Part shown: positions 9,435 through 21,810 of the stretch, one piece after another
How positions within the stretch are numbered: position 1 is the stretch's first letter
How the letters are laid out: each line of letters starts with the position of its first letter
Source: Lachnospiraceae bacterium
GTDB lineage: Bacteria; Bacillota; Clostridia; Lachnospirales; Lachnospiraceae
DNA length: 23,302 nt
Direction: 5' to 3'
NCBI GenBank assembly: GCA_900751785.1
Contig: CAADSM010000015.1
Location: forward strand, 1 to 23,302
Translations under genes and position numbers: made by a program
Notes under the pieces: model-generated
What the model was told of the DNA's origin: nothing
Databases searched by the model: none
What the model saw: the letters and a program-made list of their open reading frames with translations, nothing else

Positions 9435-10754
9435 TCAATTTTTCGTGAAAAGGATCTCCATCCGTGTTCCTTTTCCTTCATCACTCTCAACATTCACTTT
9501 CGCCCCATGGAGTATCGCTCCATGCTTAACGATCGACAGCCCAAGGCCTGTGCCGCCCCGCTCTTTGGAGTGGCTCTTGTCCACACGGTAGAACCGCTCG
9601 AATATCCTCTCCTGATGCTCCTTCGGGATTCCGATCCCGGTGTCGGCGACACTGATCTTCGGACCGCTCAGTGTACTGCCGACCCATACGGTGACACGGC
9701 CGTTGTCATTGTTATACTTGATCGCATTTTCGCAGATATTGTATACCATCTCATCCAGGATCTGGCGGATGCCCTTGTATATGACAGGCTCGCCCGTAAC
9801 TTCCATATGGATGTTTTTCTGCGCTGCCTGGGGTGCAAGCCTGCTCACGATCTCCCTGGTCAGATCATAGAGATCGACCTCTTCCTTCTCCAGCTCTACA
9901 GACTCTTCATCCAGCTTGGAAAGCTTGATGATATCCTCAACAAGCGTGATAAGGCGGCGCGCCTCCTTATAGATCCTCTCTGAGAAGAGCGGAATATCCG
10001 CCGGCCGCACCATTCCGTTCATCATGATCTCTGCATATCCCGAGATGGAGGTCAGCGGCGTCTTCAGCTCATGGGATACATTCGCCGAAAATTCCTTCCG
10101 CATGTTGGACACTGCTTCCTTTTCCTTGTTCTGCCGGTCCATCGCCTCGAGAAGAGGGGTCAGCTCCGGATATACCGAATTCTCCAGCGGATTCTCCAGG
10201 TCGAGCTCATTGATCGGTTTGATCAGCCTCTTCGTCTGCCATCTGGCGAGCAGCAGGGCGAATACGATCATCAGGACAGCAAGCCCGCCCATGACAGGGA
10301 GCATGTCAAACGCTGTCCTCACAAGGCTGTCCATCTCACGCGCTACACGGAGGACAGAGCCGTCATCGAGAAGGACTGCATAGTAATACAGCTCCCTTCC
10401 GACCGTATCGGACACTCTGACATCCTCTCCCTCTCCGTTCTCCAGCGCCTCTCTGACCTCTTCTCTCTCGCTGTGGTTCTCCAGATCTTTCTCGTCCCTC
10501 CTGGAATCATACAGCACCTCGCCGTCCGCTGTGATGCAGGTGACCCTGGCGCCCCAGTCCACCGCGTCCATCTCTGCCAGATATTTTGTCCCGGATATAT
10601 CGATGGCCCGCTGGATATACTTTGCCTCCTGCTGCACTTCGGACTCAAGTATTTCCAGATTCCTGTTGTACAGGATAATGGAAAAGATCGCGTAGAACAC
10701 GATCAGAGTGATCGAAAGGATCAGCACCATGCTTCTCTGAATCCTGCTTCTCAT
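9435..10754 (-). CDS. phoR: Phosphate sensor histidine kinase PhoR
   Basis: Membrane-bound kinase of 439 residues that phosphorylates the response regulator encoded upstream. Transmembrane helices at about residues 8-29 and 151-171 enclose an extracytoplasmic domain of about 120 residues. The HisKA domain has the phospho-acceptor H228 in SHELKTPLTSISGYAE. The ATPase domain shows the N box NICENAIKYNN (339-349), G1 DTGIGIP (371-377) and G2 GGTGLGLS (400-407). Start and upstream stop overlap as ATGA, so it is coupled to phoP. Its position behind pst and phoU, not just its fold, supports a phosphate role. No cytoplasmic PAS domain is evident, so it is the shorter PhoR type. Confidence 0.9.
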   Translation of the reverse strand: MRSRIQRSMVLILSITLIVFYAIFSIILYNRNLEILESEVQQEAKYIQRAIDISGTKYLAEMDAVDWGARVTCITADGEVLYDSRRDEKDLENHSEREEVREALENGEGEDVRVSDTVGRELYYYAVLLDDGSVLRVAREMDSLVRTAFDMLPVMGGLAVLMIVFALLLARWQTKRLIKPINELDLENPLENSVYPELTPLLEAMDRQNKEKEAVSNMRKEFSANVSHELKTPLTSISGYAEIMMNGMVRPADIPLFSERIYKEARRLITLVEDIIKLSKLDEESVELEKEEVDLYDLTREIVSRLAPQAAQKNIHMEVTGEPVIYKGIRQILDEMVYNICENAIKYNNDNGRVTVWVGSTLSGPKISVADTGIGIPKEHQERIFERFYRVDKSHSKERGGTGLGLSIVKHGAILHGAKVNVESDEGKGTRMEILFTKN

Positions 10755-11425
10755 GCATCTCCCCCTACGCGATAACCCACGCCGCGCACGGTCTGGATGA
10801 TCTCGCCCTTTTCTCCGAGTTTCTGTCTCAGCGTCCGGATATGTACGTCTACCGTACGTGTCTCCCCGTCGAAATCATATCCCCAGATCTCTGCGAGGAG
10901 CTGATCCCTGGTGAGTACGATCCCCTGATTGCGCATCAGCTTCTCCAGCAGCTCAAACTCTTTCAAAGTCAGGGAAATCTCCTTTCCGTTCACTGTGACT
11001 TCATGCTTCTTCACATTGACATGGACACCGGAAATATCCATATCCAGCCTGTCCTCCACTTTTCCACTCCTGCGGAGGACTGCCTTGATCCTGGATACAA
11101 GCTCCATCATGCCGAACGGTTTTGTGACATAATCATCAGCGCCGGAATCAAGTCCCACGACCTTGTCGTATTCCGACCCTTTCGCAGTCACCATGATGAC
11201 CGGGATCCCCTTCGTCTTCTGTGAAGATTTCAGTTTCTTTAGAAGCTCAAGGCCATCATCTCCAGGGAGCATGATATCAAGCAAAATAAGCTCCGGCGTA
11301 TCAAATGCCAGAGCCTCCATAAAAGCAGAACCATCTGCGAATCCTTTTGCCTTGAGCCCTGTCGTCTCTAATGTATATATCACAAGTTCACGAATGTTAT
11401 CGTCATCTTCTACGCAATATATCAT
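10751..11425 (-). CDS. phoP: Phosphate response regulator PhoP (PhoB family)
   Basis: OmpR/PhoB-type transcription factor of 224 residues. The receiver domain has the acidic pair D7/D8, the phospho-acceptor D50 in LILLDIMLPGDDG, and the conserved lysine in VTKPFG; the C-terminal winged helix contains RTVDVHIRTLRQKLG. The start at 11425 has AAGGAG about 10 nt upstream. It sits between phoU and phoR, and the TT(T/A)ACA hexamers upstream of pstS are its likely binding sites. A 160-nt gap with strong hairpins separates it from phoU, so expression may be read-through from pst plus a weak local promoter. Confidence 0.9.
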   Translation of the reverse strand: MIYCVEDDDNIRELVIYTLETTGLKAKGFADGSAFMEALAFDTPELILLDIMLPGDDGLELLKKLKSSQKTKGIPVIMVTAKGSEYDKVVGLDSGADDYVTKPFGMMELVSRIKAVLRRSGKVEDRLDMDISGVHVNVKKHEVTVNGKEISLTLKEFELLEKLMRNQGIVLTRDQLLAEIWGYDFDGETRTVDVHIRTLRQKLGEKGEIIQTVRGVGYRVGGDA

Positions 11426-11574: not shown

Positions 11575-11590
11575 CTGAGCCGCGGCTCAG
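11575..11590 (-). promoter_or_regulatory. Perfect palindrome over the phoU stop codon
   Basis: CTGAGCCG-CGGCTCAG is a perfect 16-bp palindrome that includes the phoU stop (11587-11589). No T-run follows. It may form an RNA hairpin or cruciform at the 3' end of phoU; function is inferred only. Confidence 0.5.
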
Positions 11591-12255
11591 CTCTCGTGTA
11601 TGATCGCGCTGTCCTTGTGAACGCCCGTGATAGAAAACTCTACCCACTCAGCAATGTTCGTCGCGTGATCTCCGATACGCTCCAGATACTTCGTCACCAT
11701 GATCAGGTCAAAGATCTTCTTTCCGTTCTCTCCCTTTTCTTCTTTGATAAAGTCGATCATCTCGTCTCTGACTTCCTCAAAGTACTGGTCGATCGCGTCG
11801 TCCGCCTTCATCACGTCGCGGGCAAGCTCAAGATCTCTGTTCACATAGGCGGTCACGCTGTTGCGCACCATCCTGCTGACCTCGGAAGCCATGGTTCCGA
11901 TGACGTGGATATCGTCTGCCGCAACGTCGTTCTTAGAGGAAAGAATGATCTCGGCAATGTCGGACGTCTGGTCTCCGATTCGCTCCATATCTGTGATCAT
12001 TTTCAAGGCCGCTGAAATTCTTCTTAAATCCTTCGCCACCGGCTGCTGCTGGAGAAGAAGCTTCAGGCACAGTCTCTCGATATCTTTCTCGATCTGATCA
12101 ATCTCCTCATCCTCTGTGATAATGATTTTCGCCTGTTCTTTGCTGCCGTCCTTTAACGCCTGTGTCGCTTTCGCGATCGCCGCCTCGCACAGCTCTCCCA
12201 TATGTGTAAGCTGCTCATCAAGGCTGTGAAGCTGCTCATCAAATCTATTACGCAT
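11587..12255 (-). CDS. phoU: Phosphate transport system regulator PhoU
   Basis: Cytoplasmic all-helical protein of 222 residues that damps PhoR signalling and Pst activity when phosphate is plentiful. It has the two PhoU repeats, each with the metal-binding E/DxxxD pattern: MITDMERIGDQTSDIAE in the first and MVTKYLERIGDHATNIAEW in the second, and the N-terminal RFDEQLHSLDEQLTHMG is typical. Length is normal. The start at 12255 follows the pstB stop by 3 nt, with GGAGG inside the end of pstB, so the two are translationally linked. It is the last gene before the hairpin region that precedes phoP. Confidence 0.96.
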   Translation of the reverse strand: MRNRFDEQLHSLDEQLTHMGELCEAAIAKATQALKDGSKEQAKIIITEDEEIDQIEKDIERLCLKLLLQQQPVAKDLRRISAALKMITDMERIGDQTSDIAEIILSSKNDVAADDIHVIGTMASEVSRMVRNSVTAYVNRDLELARDVMKADDAIDQYFEEVRDEMIDFIKEEKGENGKKIFDLIMVTKYLERIGDHATNIAEWVEFSITGVHKDSAIIHES

Positions 12256-12258
12256 AGC

Positions 12259-13008
12259 TTAACCAAACCTCCCTGTGATATAATCTTCTGTTCTCTTATC
12301 CGCCGGTATAGAGAATAATTTTTCTGTCTCGTTGTACTCCACGACTTCTCCAAGAAGGAAGAACGCCGTATTATCGGAAACGCGCACCGCCTGCTGCATA
12401 TTATGCGTGACCATGACAATAGTATAATCTTTTTTCAGGTCCATCGCAAGGTCTTCGATCTTCGATGTGGAGATCGGGTCAAGCGCCGACGTAGGCTCAT
12501 CCATTAGGAGGACTTCCGGTTCTACCGCAAGCGCTCTCGCAATGCAGAGCCTCTGCTGCTGTCCGCCTGACATTCCGAGCGCGCTCGTCTTAAGACGGTC
12601 CTTGCACTCGTCCCATATCGCCGCATTGCGCAGGGATTTCTCGACAATATCATCCAGCTTTGCCTTGGAGCGGATACCGTGTGTCCTCGGTCCGAACGCG
12701 ATATTGTCGTAGATACTCATCGGGAACGGATTCGGCTTCTGGAATACCATTCCGACACGCTTTCTCAGCATATTTACATCCATGCCTTTAAAGATGTCCT
12801 GTCCGTCAAGAAGGATCTGTCCGTCGATGCGGCATCCCTCGACAAGGTCGTTCATACGGTTGATTGACTTCAAGAGAGTAGACTTACCGCATCCGGAAGG
12901 TCCGATGAAAGCGGTGATCTTGTTGGATTCGATTTCCAGATTTACATTCTTGAGAGCCTTGAAGTCTCCGTAGTATAAATCAAGATTCTTGATACTTATC
13001 TTTGACAT
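12259..13008 (-). CDS. pstB: Phosphate ABC transporter ATP-binding protein PstB
   Basis: ATPase of the high-affinity phosphate importer, 249 residues from the chosen start [20 protein letters not shown]. Walker [10 protein letters not shown] is at residues 36-44, signature MSGGQQQR at 146-153 and Walker [14 protein letters not shown] at 166-178; the segment RMNDLV after Walker A is PstB-specific. An in-frame ATG at 13128 would add 40 residues, but that stretch is the translated pstA end plus the 63-bp repeat and has no family resemblance. The start at 13008 has AAAGG/GGTAGAG upstream. The repeat separates it from pstA. Confidence 0.96.
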
Positions 13009-13023
13009 TTTCTCTACCTTTCC

Positions 13024-13086
13024 TTCAATTTGGGACGTAGTGAAATTGAATTTGACTACGTCCCCTTTCACAGTTTTTTCACATTT
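13024..13086. repeat. 63-bp intergenic hairpin repeat, copy 1 (pstA-pstB)
   Basis: This stretch matches 17993-18055 at 61 of 63 positions (differences at 13031 and 13042). Its core is a perfect 10-bp inverted repeat, GGGACGTAGT (13032-13041) and ACTACGTCCC (13055-13064), around an AT-rich loop that itself holds AAATT-G-AATTT. On the minus strand the hairpin is preceded by two TGTGAAA repeats. It overlaps the last bases of the pstA stop codon. It looks like a small mobile or REP-type palindromic repeat; no transposase is nearby. Confidence 0.85.
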
Positions 13087-13969
13087 ATGCTTTCGTAAGT
13101 TTTCTCGCAATAAAGCTTGACAGTGCATTAATGCCTACTACAAGTACAAGCAGGATCACCGCCGTCGCATACGCCTGATCCATGTAAAGTCCCTCACTGG
13201 AGAGAACATACATGTGAAGCGCCAGAGTACGTCCGGATCCCATAATGCTGTCCGGAATCTGCGCTACTGTTCCTGATGTGTACATCAGGGCTGCTGTCTC
13301 GCCGACGATACGGCCGATCGCAAGGATCACTCCTGCGAGGACGCCGGGGATGGCGGACGGAAGTACAATGCGGAACACGGTACGCAGTTTTCCTGCTCCC
13401 AGTCCGAAGCTTCCTTCACGGTAGGAATCCGGAACTGCTTTCAGCGCTTCCTCTGTCGTCCTCATGATCAGCGGAAGGATCATGATGGCGATCGTAAATG
13501 CGCCGGCCAGAATGGAGAATCCCCATTCCAGCGTATTTACAAAGAACAGCATACCAAAGAGACCGTATACGATAGACGGGATTCCCTGGAGCGTCTCTGT
13601 CGTAAGCCGGATGACCTCGACAAATTTATTGCCTCTCTTCGCGTACTCTACAAGGAAGATCGCGGAGAAGATTCCGAAAGGCACTGCAATAAGAAGGGAT
13701 AACAGCGTCATAACGATCGTATTGACAAAGGCAGGCACGACCGAAGCATTTTCCGAACTGTATTCCAGAGAGAAAAGCGACGGTGTAATATGCGGCACGC
13801 CGTTGATCAGGATGTAGGCGATCAGGAAGATCAGCACGGCAAATGTAATGACCGCCGCCAGCATCACGAGCAGCATCACGATAAACGAGCCCGGATGCTT
13901 CAGATAAGTCTTCAGCCTATCTCTCATCGTTGTCTTATTAACCATTGTTTTTCCTGTCTGATTACTCAT
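13085..13969 (-). CDS. pstA: Phosphate ABC transporter permease PstA
   Basis: Inner-membrane permease of the phosphate importer, 294 residues, with a first hydrophobic helix at about residues 30-54 and about five more. The cytoplasmic coupling loop (EAA motif) is seen in [20 protein letters not shown], and the [10 protein letters not shown] motif is typical of PstA/PstC. The start at 13969 has GAGGGGGG upstream and overlaps the end of pstC by 8 nt. Later ATG codons at 13945 and 13927 are possible but lack the ribosome site. The stop codon abuts repeat copy 1. Confidence 0.95.
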
Positions 13970-14855
13970 GATCCGCCCCCCTCTTAAGTAATGCTACGCT
14001 TAAGTTGATGATCAGGATGAATACAAAGAGCACAACTCCGGTTGCGATCAGGGCTTCGCGGTGAAGTCCGGTCGCATACCCCATCTCGATTACGATATTT
14101 CCGGTCAGGGTACGGATTCCTTCAAGGATGCTTCCTGTCAGACGCGCCTGGTTTCCGACGATCATAATGACCGCCATTGTCTCTCCGATGGCACGTCCGA
14201 TCCCGAGGACGATCCCCGCGATCACACCTGATTTTGCCGCCGGAATAATCACGCGGAAGATACTTCTTTCTTTCGTAGCTCCCAGTGCAAGCGATCCTTC
14301 ATAGTAATGGGAAGGAACTGCGCGCATCGCGCTCTCTGTCGTTCCGATGATAGTCGGCAGGATCATCATGCCGAGAATCAGGGAGGCTGTCAGGATACTG
14401 TTTCCATTTCCCGGGTTTTTTACAAGATTTGCTTTATATAACACGGTTCCGAACTCGCGGATCAGCGGCACGACTACCACCAGTCCGAAGAAACCGTAGA
14501 TAACCGAAGGGATTCCGGCAAGCAGCTCCGTTGCTGCTTTCAGCGGTTTGTAGATCTGCTTCGGGCAGTACATTGCCATGAAAACAGAAGTCAGGATTCC
14601 GATCGGCACTCCGAATATGATCGCGCCCGCGGTCACATAGAGACTTCCCACGATCATCGGAAGGATTCCGAACTGTTCACTGTTCGGACGCCAGATCTCA
14701 CCTGTCAGGAATTTGATAAATCCGATTTCTCTCATTGCAGGGATGCCATTTGCGAACAGGAAAATGCAAATGAGCGCTACCGCCAGCACGGATGCACACG
14801 CGGCTACGAAAAATACTCCCTGCATGAATTTTTCAGTCCATGCTTTTGATTTCAT
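13962..14855 (-). CDS. pstC: Phosphate ABC transporter permease PstC
   Basis: Partner permease to PstA, 297 residues. A first membrane helix lies at about residues 11-33 and a large extracytoplasmic loop carries FLTGEIWRPNSEQFGILPMI, characteristic of PstC. The coupling loop is AMRAVPSHYYEGSLALGAT, followed by GIGRAIGETMAV. The start at 14855 has AGGAGG 6 nt upstream. A 10-bp intercistronic hairpin lies immediately before that ribosome site, and pstA overlaps the 3' end. Confidence 0.95.
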   Translation of the reverse strand: MKSKAWTEKFMQGVFFVAACASVLAVALICIFLFANGIPAMREIGFIKFLTGEIWRPNSEQFGILPMIVGSLYVTAGAIIFGVPIGILTSVFMAMYCPKQIYKPLKAATELLAGIPSVIYGFFGLVVVVPLIREFGTVLYKANLVKNPGNGNSILTASLILGMMILPTIIGTTESAMRAVPSHYYEGSLALGATKERSIFRVIIPAAKSGVIAGIVLGIGRAIGETMAVIMIVGNQARLTGSILEGIRTLTGNIVIEMGYATGLHREALIATGVVLFVFILIINLSVALLKRGADHE

Positions 14856-14998: not shown

Positions 14999-15904
14999 TT
15001 AGATTGCATCCCATGTTGTAACATCGCCAAGGTAGATGTTCTTAACCTGGTCTGAAGACAGATCGTCTGTCGGGTTGTTCTTGTTTACGATAACTGCGAT
15101 ACCGTCTGTCGCGATCACTGTGCCTGTAAGCTCGGCTGCTTCCTCGTCTTTCAGCTCTCTGGACGCCATACCGATATCATAGCTTCCCTCTATCGTTGAT
15201 GTCATACCTGTTGTAGAATCAGATGTCTGAAGCTCGATTGATGCGTTCGGGTTAACTTCTTTGTAAGCCTCGACCAGTTTCTCCATCAGCGGTGATACGG
15301 AAGAAGATCCTCCTACTACACAGCTTCCTTCCGGAGCGCTTCCCGCATAGGCCTCAACGTCAGCTACCGGGATATATCCCTCGTCAGCTACAACTTCCTG
15401 ACCTTCTGTGCTCATGATGAATGCCATGAAGTCCGTTGCCACCGGATTGTCAAGATCCGGCTTTACAGCTACGTTGAACGGCCTGGATACTTTGTAAGTT
15501 TCGTTTTCAATGTTCTCCGCCGTAGCGTCTACTCCGTCGATCTTAACAGCCTTTACAAGCGACTCGTCAAGAGAACCGAGAGAGATATAACCAATCGCAT
15601 ACTCATTCTCAGATACTGTTGTCATCATAACGGATGTACTGTTTGTCGTCTGAGCGTCCAGAGTGATCATATCGTTGTCTTCTTCGTCAACAACTCCGAA
15701 CAGCTCTGTGAAAGCTCCTCTTGTACCTGATCCTTCCTCACGTGTTACGGCTGTGATCATGTTTGCCGCATCCCATGCTCCCTCTGTAGACTCGCCGCTG
15801 TCCTTCGGTTCAGCGTTGTCGTTGTTGCTGCTTCCGCATCCGACTGCTGCGACAGCCATCATACTTGCGATAGATAATACTGCGATAAACTTTTTCATTC
15901 TCAT
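14999..15904 (-). CDS. pstS: Phosphate-binding lipoprotein PstS, circularly permuted
   Basis: Extracellular phosphate receptor of the Pst importer, 301 residues. A lipoprotein signal ends at AAVGC (C23). The order of parts is unusual: the phosphate-loop segment ITAVTREEGSGTRGAF (50-65) and the IGYISLGSL strand (104-112), which in ordinary PstS lie in the middle, come first, ending with GYIPV at 176-180. Only then, at about 195, comes VVGGSSSVSPLMEKLVEAY, which normally starts the mature protein, and the chain ends at YLGDVTTWDAI, the segment normally followed by the VTREEGSGTR part. This is a circular permutation with both lobes complete. Start at 15904 has AAGGAG 10 nt upstream; MKK at 15898 is an alternative. 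Confidence 0.9.
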   Translation of the reverse strand: MRMKKFIAVLSIASMMAVAAVGCGSSNNDNAEPKDSGESTEGAWDAANMITAVTREEGSGTRGAFTELFGVVDEEDNDMITLDAQTTNSTSVMMTTVSENEYAIGYISLGSLDESLVKAVKIDGVDATAENIENETYKVSRPFNVAVKPDLDNPVATDFMAFIMSTEGQEVVADEGYIPVADVEAYAGSAPEGSCVVGGSSSVSPLMEKLVEAYKEVNPNASIELQTSDSTTGMTSTIEGSYDIGMASRELKDEEAAELTGTVIATDGIAVIVNKNNPTDDLSSDQVKNIYLGDVTTWDAI

Positions 15905-15963: not shown

Positions 15964-16018
15964 ATCATATAGGGACAATGTTAAATGTAAAATCAGCAGA
16001 ATGTTAAATCTATGTAAA
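15964..16018 (-). promoter_or_regulatory. pstS promoter with Pho boxes
   Basis: On the minus strand four TT(T/A)ACA hexamers occur in 40 nt: TTTACA (16013-16018), TTAACA (16002-16007), TTTACA (15986-15991) and TTAACA (15979-15984). The first two have the 11-bp period of the Bacillus PhoP box; the others are offset. A -10-like TATGAT follows at 15964-15969 without a good -35 box, as expected of an activator-dependent promoter. PhoP encoded at 10751-11425 is the likely activator under phosphate limitation. Confidence 0.75.
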
Positions 16019-17972: not shown

Positions 17973-17992
17973 CGTAAAATACCTCTCTTTTT

Positions 17993-18055
17993 TTCAATTG
18001 GGGACGTAGTAAAATTGAATTTGACTACGTCCCCTTTCACAGTTTTTTCACATTT
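17993..18055. repeat. 63-bp intergenic hairpin repeat, copy 2 (binding protein-phnW)
   Basis: Second copy of the element at 13024-13086, 61 of 63 positions identical and in the same orientation. One of the two differences extends the stem to 11 bp, GGGGACGTAGT (18000-18010) with ACTACGTCCCC. It again starts at the stop codon of the upstream gene and ends just before the ribosome site of the next gene. Confidence 0.85.
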
Positions 18056-21750: not shown

Positions 21751-21798
21751 GAAAAATTAAGCCTGTGTAAAGGGATTGTAAACTTTACACAGGCTTAA
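21751..21798 (-). terminator. Intrinsic terminator after the RpiR gene
   Basis: A perfect 16-bp inverted repeat (21757-21772 with 21783-21798) with a 10-nt loop, followed on the minus strand by five T. It lies 23 nt beyond the regulator stop and isolates the phosphonate operon promoter. Confidence 0.88.
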
Positions 21799-21810
21799 CA
21801 TATGTTCAAT

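Follow-up and report, generated by a model that had tools for sequence, protein, structure and literature searches.

A circularly permuted PstS phosphate-binding lipoprotein encoded in a pst-phoU operon of a Lachnospiraceae bacterium

Structures of canonical PstS, the phosphate-binding protein of the Pst ATP-binding cassette (ABC) importer, are available from Clostridium perfringens (4gd5 and 4q8r) and Vibrio cholerae (1twy), and the SP_2084 PstS of Streptococcus pneumoniae has been solved as PDB entry 4H1X. The pstS gene described here lies at 14999..15904 on the minus strand of a 23,302-nucleotide stretch of DNA (contig CAADSM010000015.1 of assembly GCA_900751785.1; hereafter, the window) from a Lachnospiraceae bacterium, which is probably a gut bacterium. 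Its product shares with canonical PstS two homologous halves, the phosphate motifs and the type of operon, the identity being 32-45% over the half aligned by Foldseek. In canonical PstS, however, the halves stand in the opposite order. The order found here is that of 4H1X, which showed at most 52% identity to any other row of the trees described below and formed a deep branch of the permuted clade.

The PDB labels 4H1X 'pstS 2', but judging from the gene numbers in PMC6722419 it is the Pst1 protein and not the PstS2 of PMC4913102. The permutation of 4H1X/SP_2084 is not mentioned in the available text of PMC6722419 or in that of PMC4913102, whose main text lacks the string 'permut', and the PhoX paper, which compared PstS structures, never mentions 4H1X (0 occurrences). 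No permuted PstS was found among the matches listed from open-access PMC text, subscription papers being outside the search. While the fold of permuted PstS is known from the PDB, there appears to be no report in open-access text that recognises it, groups it into one clade with a PstC lineage of its own or describes the composite forms treated below. Another natural lipidated circular permutant of an ABC-importer binding protein is the glucose-binding TpMglB-2 (Tp0684), a 'Type Ic' protein whose relatives occur in treponemes and in Gram-positive bacteria of the gut (PMC4990184). Since TpMglB-2 is a Type I sugar-binding protein with another fold type and another ligand, it represents a separate permutation event. 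The glycine-betaine-binding OpuAC/ProX proteins have also been described as a circular-permutation family (PMC2395249); they were 10-12% identical to the pstS product, and other two-lobed proteins in the same list aligned nearly as strongly, so that a permutation point in common with PstS is not claimed.

The pstS open reading frame lies at the coordinates given in the initial annotation, has an ATG start and encodes 301 amino acids, and it is a circular permutation of ordinary pstS, not a deletion. We consider it very probable that the gene encodes the functional PstS of a Pst ABC importer and that it was permuted once, long ago, probably via tandem duplication and trimming. On the minus strand, the coding sequence begins with a signal peptide (15836..15904) carrying the lipobox AVGC and, by motif, a lipidated Cys23, followed by a tether of residues 24-47 (15764..15835) that had mostly low predicted local distance difference test values in the predicted structure, where a mostly low-confidence stretch reached to about residue 40. 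The second half of ordinary PstS comes first (residues 48-181; 15362..15763) with the phosphate motif of R55 and S59-G60-T61. An 11-residue linker between the old C- and N-termini (residues 182-192; 15329..15361) leads to the ordinary first half, which here comes last (residues 193-301; 15002..15328) and contains the motifs GGSSSV, DSTTG and IGMASR. Among 127 distinct permuted proteins, including the 4h1x fragment without its signal, the linker was 10-18 residues long (median, 11).

The swapped order was evident from both profile and structure matches. Two separate stretches of the product matched Pfam PF12849, with a whole-protein score of 114.7 bits (gathering cut-off, 27 bits); in the better one, residues 188-299 aligned with profile positions 5-124 of 267. 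The canonical structure 4q8r aligned in swapped pieces (residues 194-299 with chain positions 5-111 and residues 50-180 with 120-245), 4gd5 also gave two pieces in swapped order, and 4h1x matched residues 46-301 in a single collinear stretch. When the halves were re-ordered, a profile of 29 canonical rows gave a single match of 259.6 bits over positions 1-237 (all 237), while the native order gave two pieces, with scores of 132.5 and 114.7 bits. In the native order, residues 49-180 aligned with profile positions 111-237, and residues 193-299 with positions 1-108. Only profile positions 109-110 were left uncovered by the native pieces. The loop at the opened joint, which has a median of 4 residues in 30 canonical PstS and is not part of the 29-row profile, was absent from the product. 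Nothing is thus missing except this short loop, and the claims of the initial annotation that the GSGTRG half comes first and that no part has been lost were borne out.

A fold in the ordinary chain order had been named at the outset as an observation that could overturn the permutation. The predicted fold followed the permuted order and agreed with the solved homologue 4h1x, and only 133-135 residues of canonical PstS structures superposed on it collinearly. Accordingly swapped in sequence and fold comparison, the halves depart from the usual type II substrate-binding topology (domain I - II - I); the predicted structure and the published PhoX domain limits suggest a chain order of II - I - II. 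It is hardly credible that faulty assembly, gene calling or a frameshift in one record, or mere chance, produced the swapped order, because the same order was present in all 80 named loci taken as the best 80 of 228 relatives in an alignment scan of named genomes (architecture confirmed by profile), in 120 listed of 7992 database matches and in the crystal structure 4h1x.

The NCBIfam profile TIGR02136 (ptsS_2) matched the product in two stretches with 189.9 bits, below its cut-off of 206.6, and relatives in two plasmid records are called only 'substrate-binding domain-containing protein'. Both facts could indicate a different binding-protein family that merely resembles PstS. This is highly improbable: the TIGR02136 score is divided over the two swapped stretches, while the rotated protein gives a single full-length canonical-profile match; the first-placed half is 32-45% identical to ordinary PstS structures, and the last-placed half scored 83 bits against 4q8r. 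Moreover, a PstC/PstA-like gene lay at most 600 bases downstream of 112 of 121 distinct permuted genes (those with more than 400 bases of downstream sequence), compared with 20 of 30 canonical and both tandem genes. In the window, the permuted gene is followed on the same strand by pstC (13962..14855; TIGR02138, 297.7 bits), pstA (13085..13969; TIGR00974, 284 bits), pstB (12259..13008; TIGR00972, 418.1 bits over residues 44-289) and phoU (11587..12255; TIGR02135, 208.6 bits). The start of pstB is inferred to be an internal Met at residue 41 of the listed frame. Homologues with the same order likewise sit in pst operons and belong to PstS, not to another family, the alternative raised by the initial annotation. 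The product also matched the permuted clade that includes 4H1X in a full-length collinear alignment and in fold, and was placed inside that clade.

The phosphate-contact motifs (R...SGT; GSSSV; SxxG; SR) were retained in both halves. The Arg and Ser-Gly-Thr of R...SGT, Ser200 of GSSSV, Ser230 and Ser248-Arg249 were near-universal in both groups of tree rows compared, 61 of them permuted and 29 canonical. Residues of such motifs contact phosphate (PMC5439949). In E. coli PstS, too, these are contact positions. Residue 229 (15218-15220), beside the second phosphate Ser, was Asp in 52 and Gly in 9 of the 61 permuted rows, and Gly in 27 and Asp in none of the 29 canonical rows. E. coli PstS has a specificity Asp (PMC5439949); as a guess, Asp229 could replace it in role.

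The initial annotation had suggested that the permuted form might be lineage-wide in Lachnospiraceae. Its presence there was confirmed, but this range proved too narrow, since the form also occurs in other Bacillota genera, in S. pneumoniae and on a Treponema plasmid. Among the best 80 of 228 relatives, the nearest to the pstS product was that of Mediterraneibacter catenae (89% identity), and the named loci belonged mostly to Mediterraneibacter and other Lachnospiraceae; beyond this family were Anaerotruncus, Anaerotignum, Agathobaculum, Phascolarctobacterium and a Peptococcaceae metagenome-assembled genome (MAG). Full-length permuted matches were found in at least 41 of 146 genomes sampled from the order and at least 14 of 398 from the phylum, both counts being lower bounds because at most 16 candidates per genome were scored in the order scan and mostly 5 in the phylum scan. 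A PF12849 survey of 149 phylum genomes, in which nearly all rows listed were canonical, was redone with a permuted alignment, and a further sample of 119 phylum genomes that overlapped the first was left out of the phylum count. Of 12 genomes picked as carriers of the permuted form, 11 lacked a PF12849 match that was both full-length and collinear, and the remaining one (G012) also had a canonical PstS; two of the 12 (G002 and G010) had two permuted copies. Among another 40 permuted-form genomes from the order, a TIGR02136 match above cut-off was present only in G500, G465 had a full-length collinear match below cut-off, and several others had weaker, mostly partial collinear matches. A second permuted gene was also seen ca. 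3.6 kb upstream of the first in a Hespellia MAG (L056), one of the 80 named loci.

Of 22 plasmid records with a match, two had a match at a single site that spanned 80% or more of the query, those of Treponema saccharophilum pTS2 and Monoglobus pectinilyticus. On pTS2 (L235), permuted pstS (52.5% identity over residues 44-301) is followed by pstC, pstA, pstB and phoU; thus, a spirochaete secondary replicon, outside Bacillota, carries a complete permuted-type pst-phoU operon, which was likely acquired by horizontal transfer. A viral collection yielded no relatives of permuted PstS. In a phage collection, 5 of 12 matching records (H23-H27) matched 80% or more of the query without interruption and in permuted order; these are unannotated fecal contigs of 5-8 kb from uncultured 'Bacteriophage sp.' and may be bacterial DNA filed as phage.

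Permuted and standard forms were surveyed and mapped on a tree of 94 rows and 244 columns, drawn from a pool of distinct segment sets, of which 125 were permuted and 30 canonical (permuted rows picked at <80% identity and canonical rows at <90%); the alignment models came from permuted sequences, and the choice of columns could therefore be biased. The permuted rows formed one group requiring a single change, albeit on a weak branch considered below, and the pstS product nested in starred sets of permuted rows. When six long rows (4 permuted and 2 canonical) were removed, the 88-row tree (57 permuted, 27 canonical and 4 tandem-copy rows) gave a permuted clade including 4h1x with values of 100/99. 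Each half alone also placed the permuted rows in one clade, with Shimodaira-Hasegawa-like approximate likelihood ratio test values of 87 and 98. In a PstC tree of 70 of 91 genes (50 permuted, 18 canonical and 2 tandem neighbours; the other 21 had no PstC of at least 220 residues just downstream in the available stretch), the neighbours of permuted pstS formed one clade (96/93), with that of the long row L156 inside it. This result indicates that permuted PstS has stayed with one PstC lineage in the sample.

As to how the order arose, the gene was probably duplicated in tandem and in frame, after which copy 1 would have lost its first half and copy 2 its second. With D1 and D2 denoting the ordinary first and second halves, two phylum genomes of one family (two of its three genomes in the sample; L154 and L155) encode a D1-D2-D1-D2 PstS in a single open frame of 531 or 544 codons. 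These tandems have the D2-D1 order in their middle, which scored 240.1 (L154) and 230.9 bits (L155) against the permuted profile, and differ from permuted PstS in having two full canonical-type copies per chain. They show that the first step of duplication and trimming happens, not that tandems are the ancestors. Among 120 listed of 7854 matches to a tandem protein, there were 105 ordinary D1-D2 proteins, five D1-D2-D1-D2 tandems (P0241-P0243, P0247 and P0250), three triples, five D2-D1-D2, one D1-D2-D1 and one D2-D1-D2-D1. The tandem, triple and three-half proteins comprise P0241-P0252, P0263, P0278 and P0309 as well as L154 and L155; P0252 is a permuted tandem, and the triple P0244 is named as from an Anaerolineae MAG. 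Many of the tandem and three-half proteins were found on metagenome contigs, and assembly could therefore have created some of them as chimeras.

The composite forms bear on another origin, by recombination or fusion of separate pstS genes or pieces. By profile scores, each of the five D2-D1-D2 proteins consists of a D2-D1 of permuted type linked to a D2 of canonical type, and two of them, P0249 and P0263, share a permuted front with two different canonical-type tails. The first half of P0278 (D1-D2-D1) was nearest to canonical 4gd5 (57% identity) and ambiguous by profile (135.7 vs 131.2 bits), whereas its D2 and last half were of permuted type; P0278 is either a relic or a recombinant. Trees with composite proteins added had mixed groups, and no starred branch placed P0278. 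On the other hand, clean in-frame tandems (five), triples (three) and a permuted tandem (one) exist among the 120 proteins listed, so that duplication alone suffices. We therefore regard recombination as a possible but rather unlikely origin, and tandem duplication with trimming as the probable one.

Phosphate would be bound between the two lobes as usual and then passed to PstC/PstA. Domain I would now be continuous and domain II split. The two strands that run from lobe to lobe (residues 140-147 and 260-274) seem undisturbed, so an ordinary hinge is expected, and since the new termini sit on lobe II, the lipid anchor would be on lobe II instead of lobe I. The kind of signalling that runs through PhoU and the two-component pair has probably not changed. 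In S. pneumoniae, SP_2084-8 is Pst1 and adjoins PnpRS (SP_2082/2083) (PMC6722419). In an encapsulated pneumococcal strain, each single mutant was obtainable while a pst1 pst2 double mutant was not, and the initial uptake rate fell ca. 2-fold without pst1-phoU1 (PMC4913102). These genetics suggest that the importer to which a permuted PstS belongs is functional and regulated by phosphate.

For TpMglB-2, its authors proposed an adaptation to lipid tethering, in which the moved anchor spares binding from tether strain (PMC4990184). By analogy, the same could apply to permuted PstS, and a motif scan found a lipobox in 121 of the 127 distinct permuted PstS. Because a lipobox was also present in 25 of the 30 canonical PstS sampled, the two forms are not told apart by tethering alone, and we consider this explanation unlikely; as a sole reason it was rejected as unsupported, the lipobox being common to both forms. 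A more speculative proposal, in which we place little confidence, is that the single, tandem, triple, three-half, permuted and permuted-tandem forms are a natural permutation series, and that the permuted form became fixed a single time, together with a PstCA lineage of its own, since an anchor on lobe II alters docking of the closed protein on the permease or the reporting of phosphate to PhoU.

Several points weigh against a single, ancient permutation by duplication in a functional importer. The permuted branch of the 94-row tree had values of only 48/0 and appeared in 50% of 200 bootstrap trees, the long rows L156 and L211 stood beside it, and the bootstrap of the 88-row tree was just short of settled. 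The tandems of L154 and L155 were tested as direct ancestors of the permuted clade and found no support, as their copies nested among canonical PstS (99/87 with one canonical row and 97/93 in a canonical set), and the duplication route is itself a reconstruction. The domain assignment rests on predicted secondary structure and the published PhoX limits (PMC5439949). Furthermore, low-phosphate growth was unaffected by the loss of pst1-phoU1 or pst2-phoU2 alone (PMC4913102). The weak branch and the uncertain placement of L156 could also reflect several origins of permuted PstS, as could the capacity of PstS genes to rearrange, to which the composite forms attest. Several origins are nevertheless quite improbable, given the one clade obtained without the six long rows and with each half alone, and the single PstC clade containing L156. 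A single permutation thus remains our reading.

Downstream of phoU, on the minus strand, lie genes for a PhoB/PnpR-like response regulator (10751..11425; TIGR02154, 235.4 bits, below the cut-off of 296.2) and a PnpS/PhoR-like histidine kinase (9435..10754; NF046044, 251.7 bits, below the cut-off of 400). The order pstC-pstA-pstB-phoU-regulator-kinase was conserved within the flank in 63 of the 80 named loci. In Ruminococcus torques ATCC 27756 (L050), no pstC-, pstA- or pstB-like gene was seen in the 5 kb 3' of permuted pstS. A pattern scan located a Pho-box-like TTTACA-N5-TTAACA (TTTACATAGATTTAACA) upstream of pstS at 16002..16018 on the minus strand, which is similar to the PnpR Pho box printed in PMC4913102. 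Five sites in the window fitted TTHACA-N5-TTHACA, where 0.01 would be expected, and two of these sites lie within another repeat. Of 78 loci, which are related, 58 had such a site upstream of permuted pstS, against 0.05 expected from shuffles. The minus strand before pstS carries ABC importer genes with a binding protein like those of the 2-aminoethylphosphonate type (TIGR03261, 100.4 bits, below its cut-off), then phnW and phnX, both scoring above their profile cut-offs. Two Pho-box-like repeats on opposite strands at 21766-21800, upstream of the phosphonate-type transporter genes, suggest that these genes share the phosphate regulon.

An intergenic repeat of ca. 60 bases with an inner GGGACGTAGT...ACTACGTCCC hairpin occurs twice on the minus strand, at 13020-13083, where it separates pstA and pstB, and at 17990-18055, where it separates the phosphonate-type binding-protein gene and phnW. 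The same hairpin pattern was present in 9 of 236 loci, each ca. 2.8 kb past the pstS start and near the pstA-pstB joint. Rfam at gathering scores gave no match in the whole window, this repeat included.

The usual-order profile TIGR02136 scored the product below its cut-off, and only one of the 40 other permuted-form genomes had a match above it, which points to an annotation gap; both RefSeq plasmid records give the names pstC, pstA, pstB and phoU to the neighbours, yet withhold the name pstS from the permuted gene. Provided that they are real, the tandem and three-half proteins are rare natural examples of use for studying the origin of circular permutations. PstS is a textbook transport protein that exists in two circular orders, each with its own PstC lineage in the sample, and its natural variants thus allow the importance of chain order and of anchor position in binding-protein importers to be tested cleanly.
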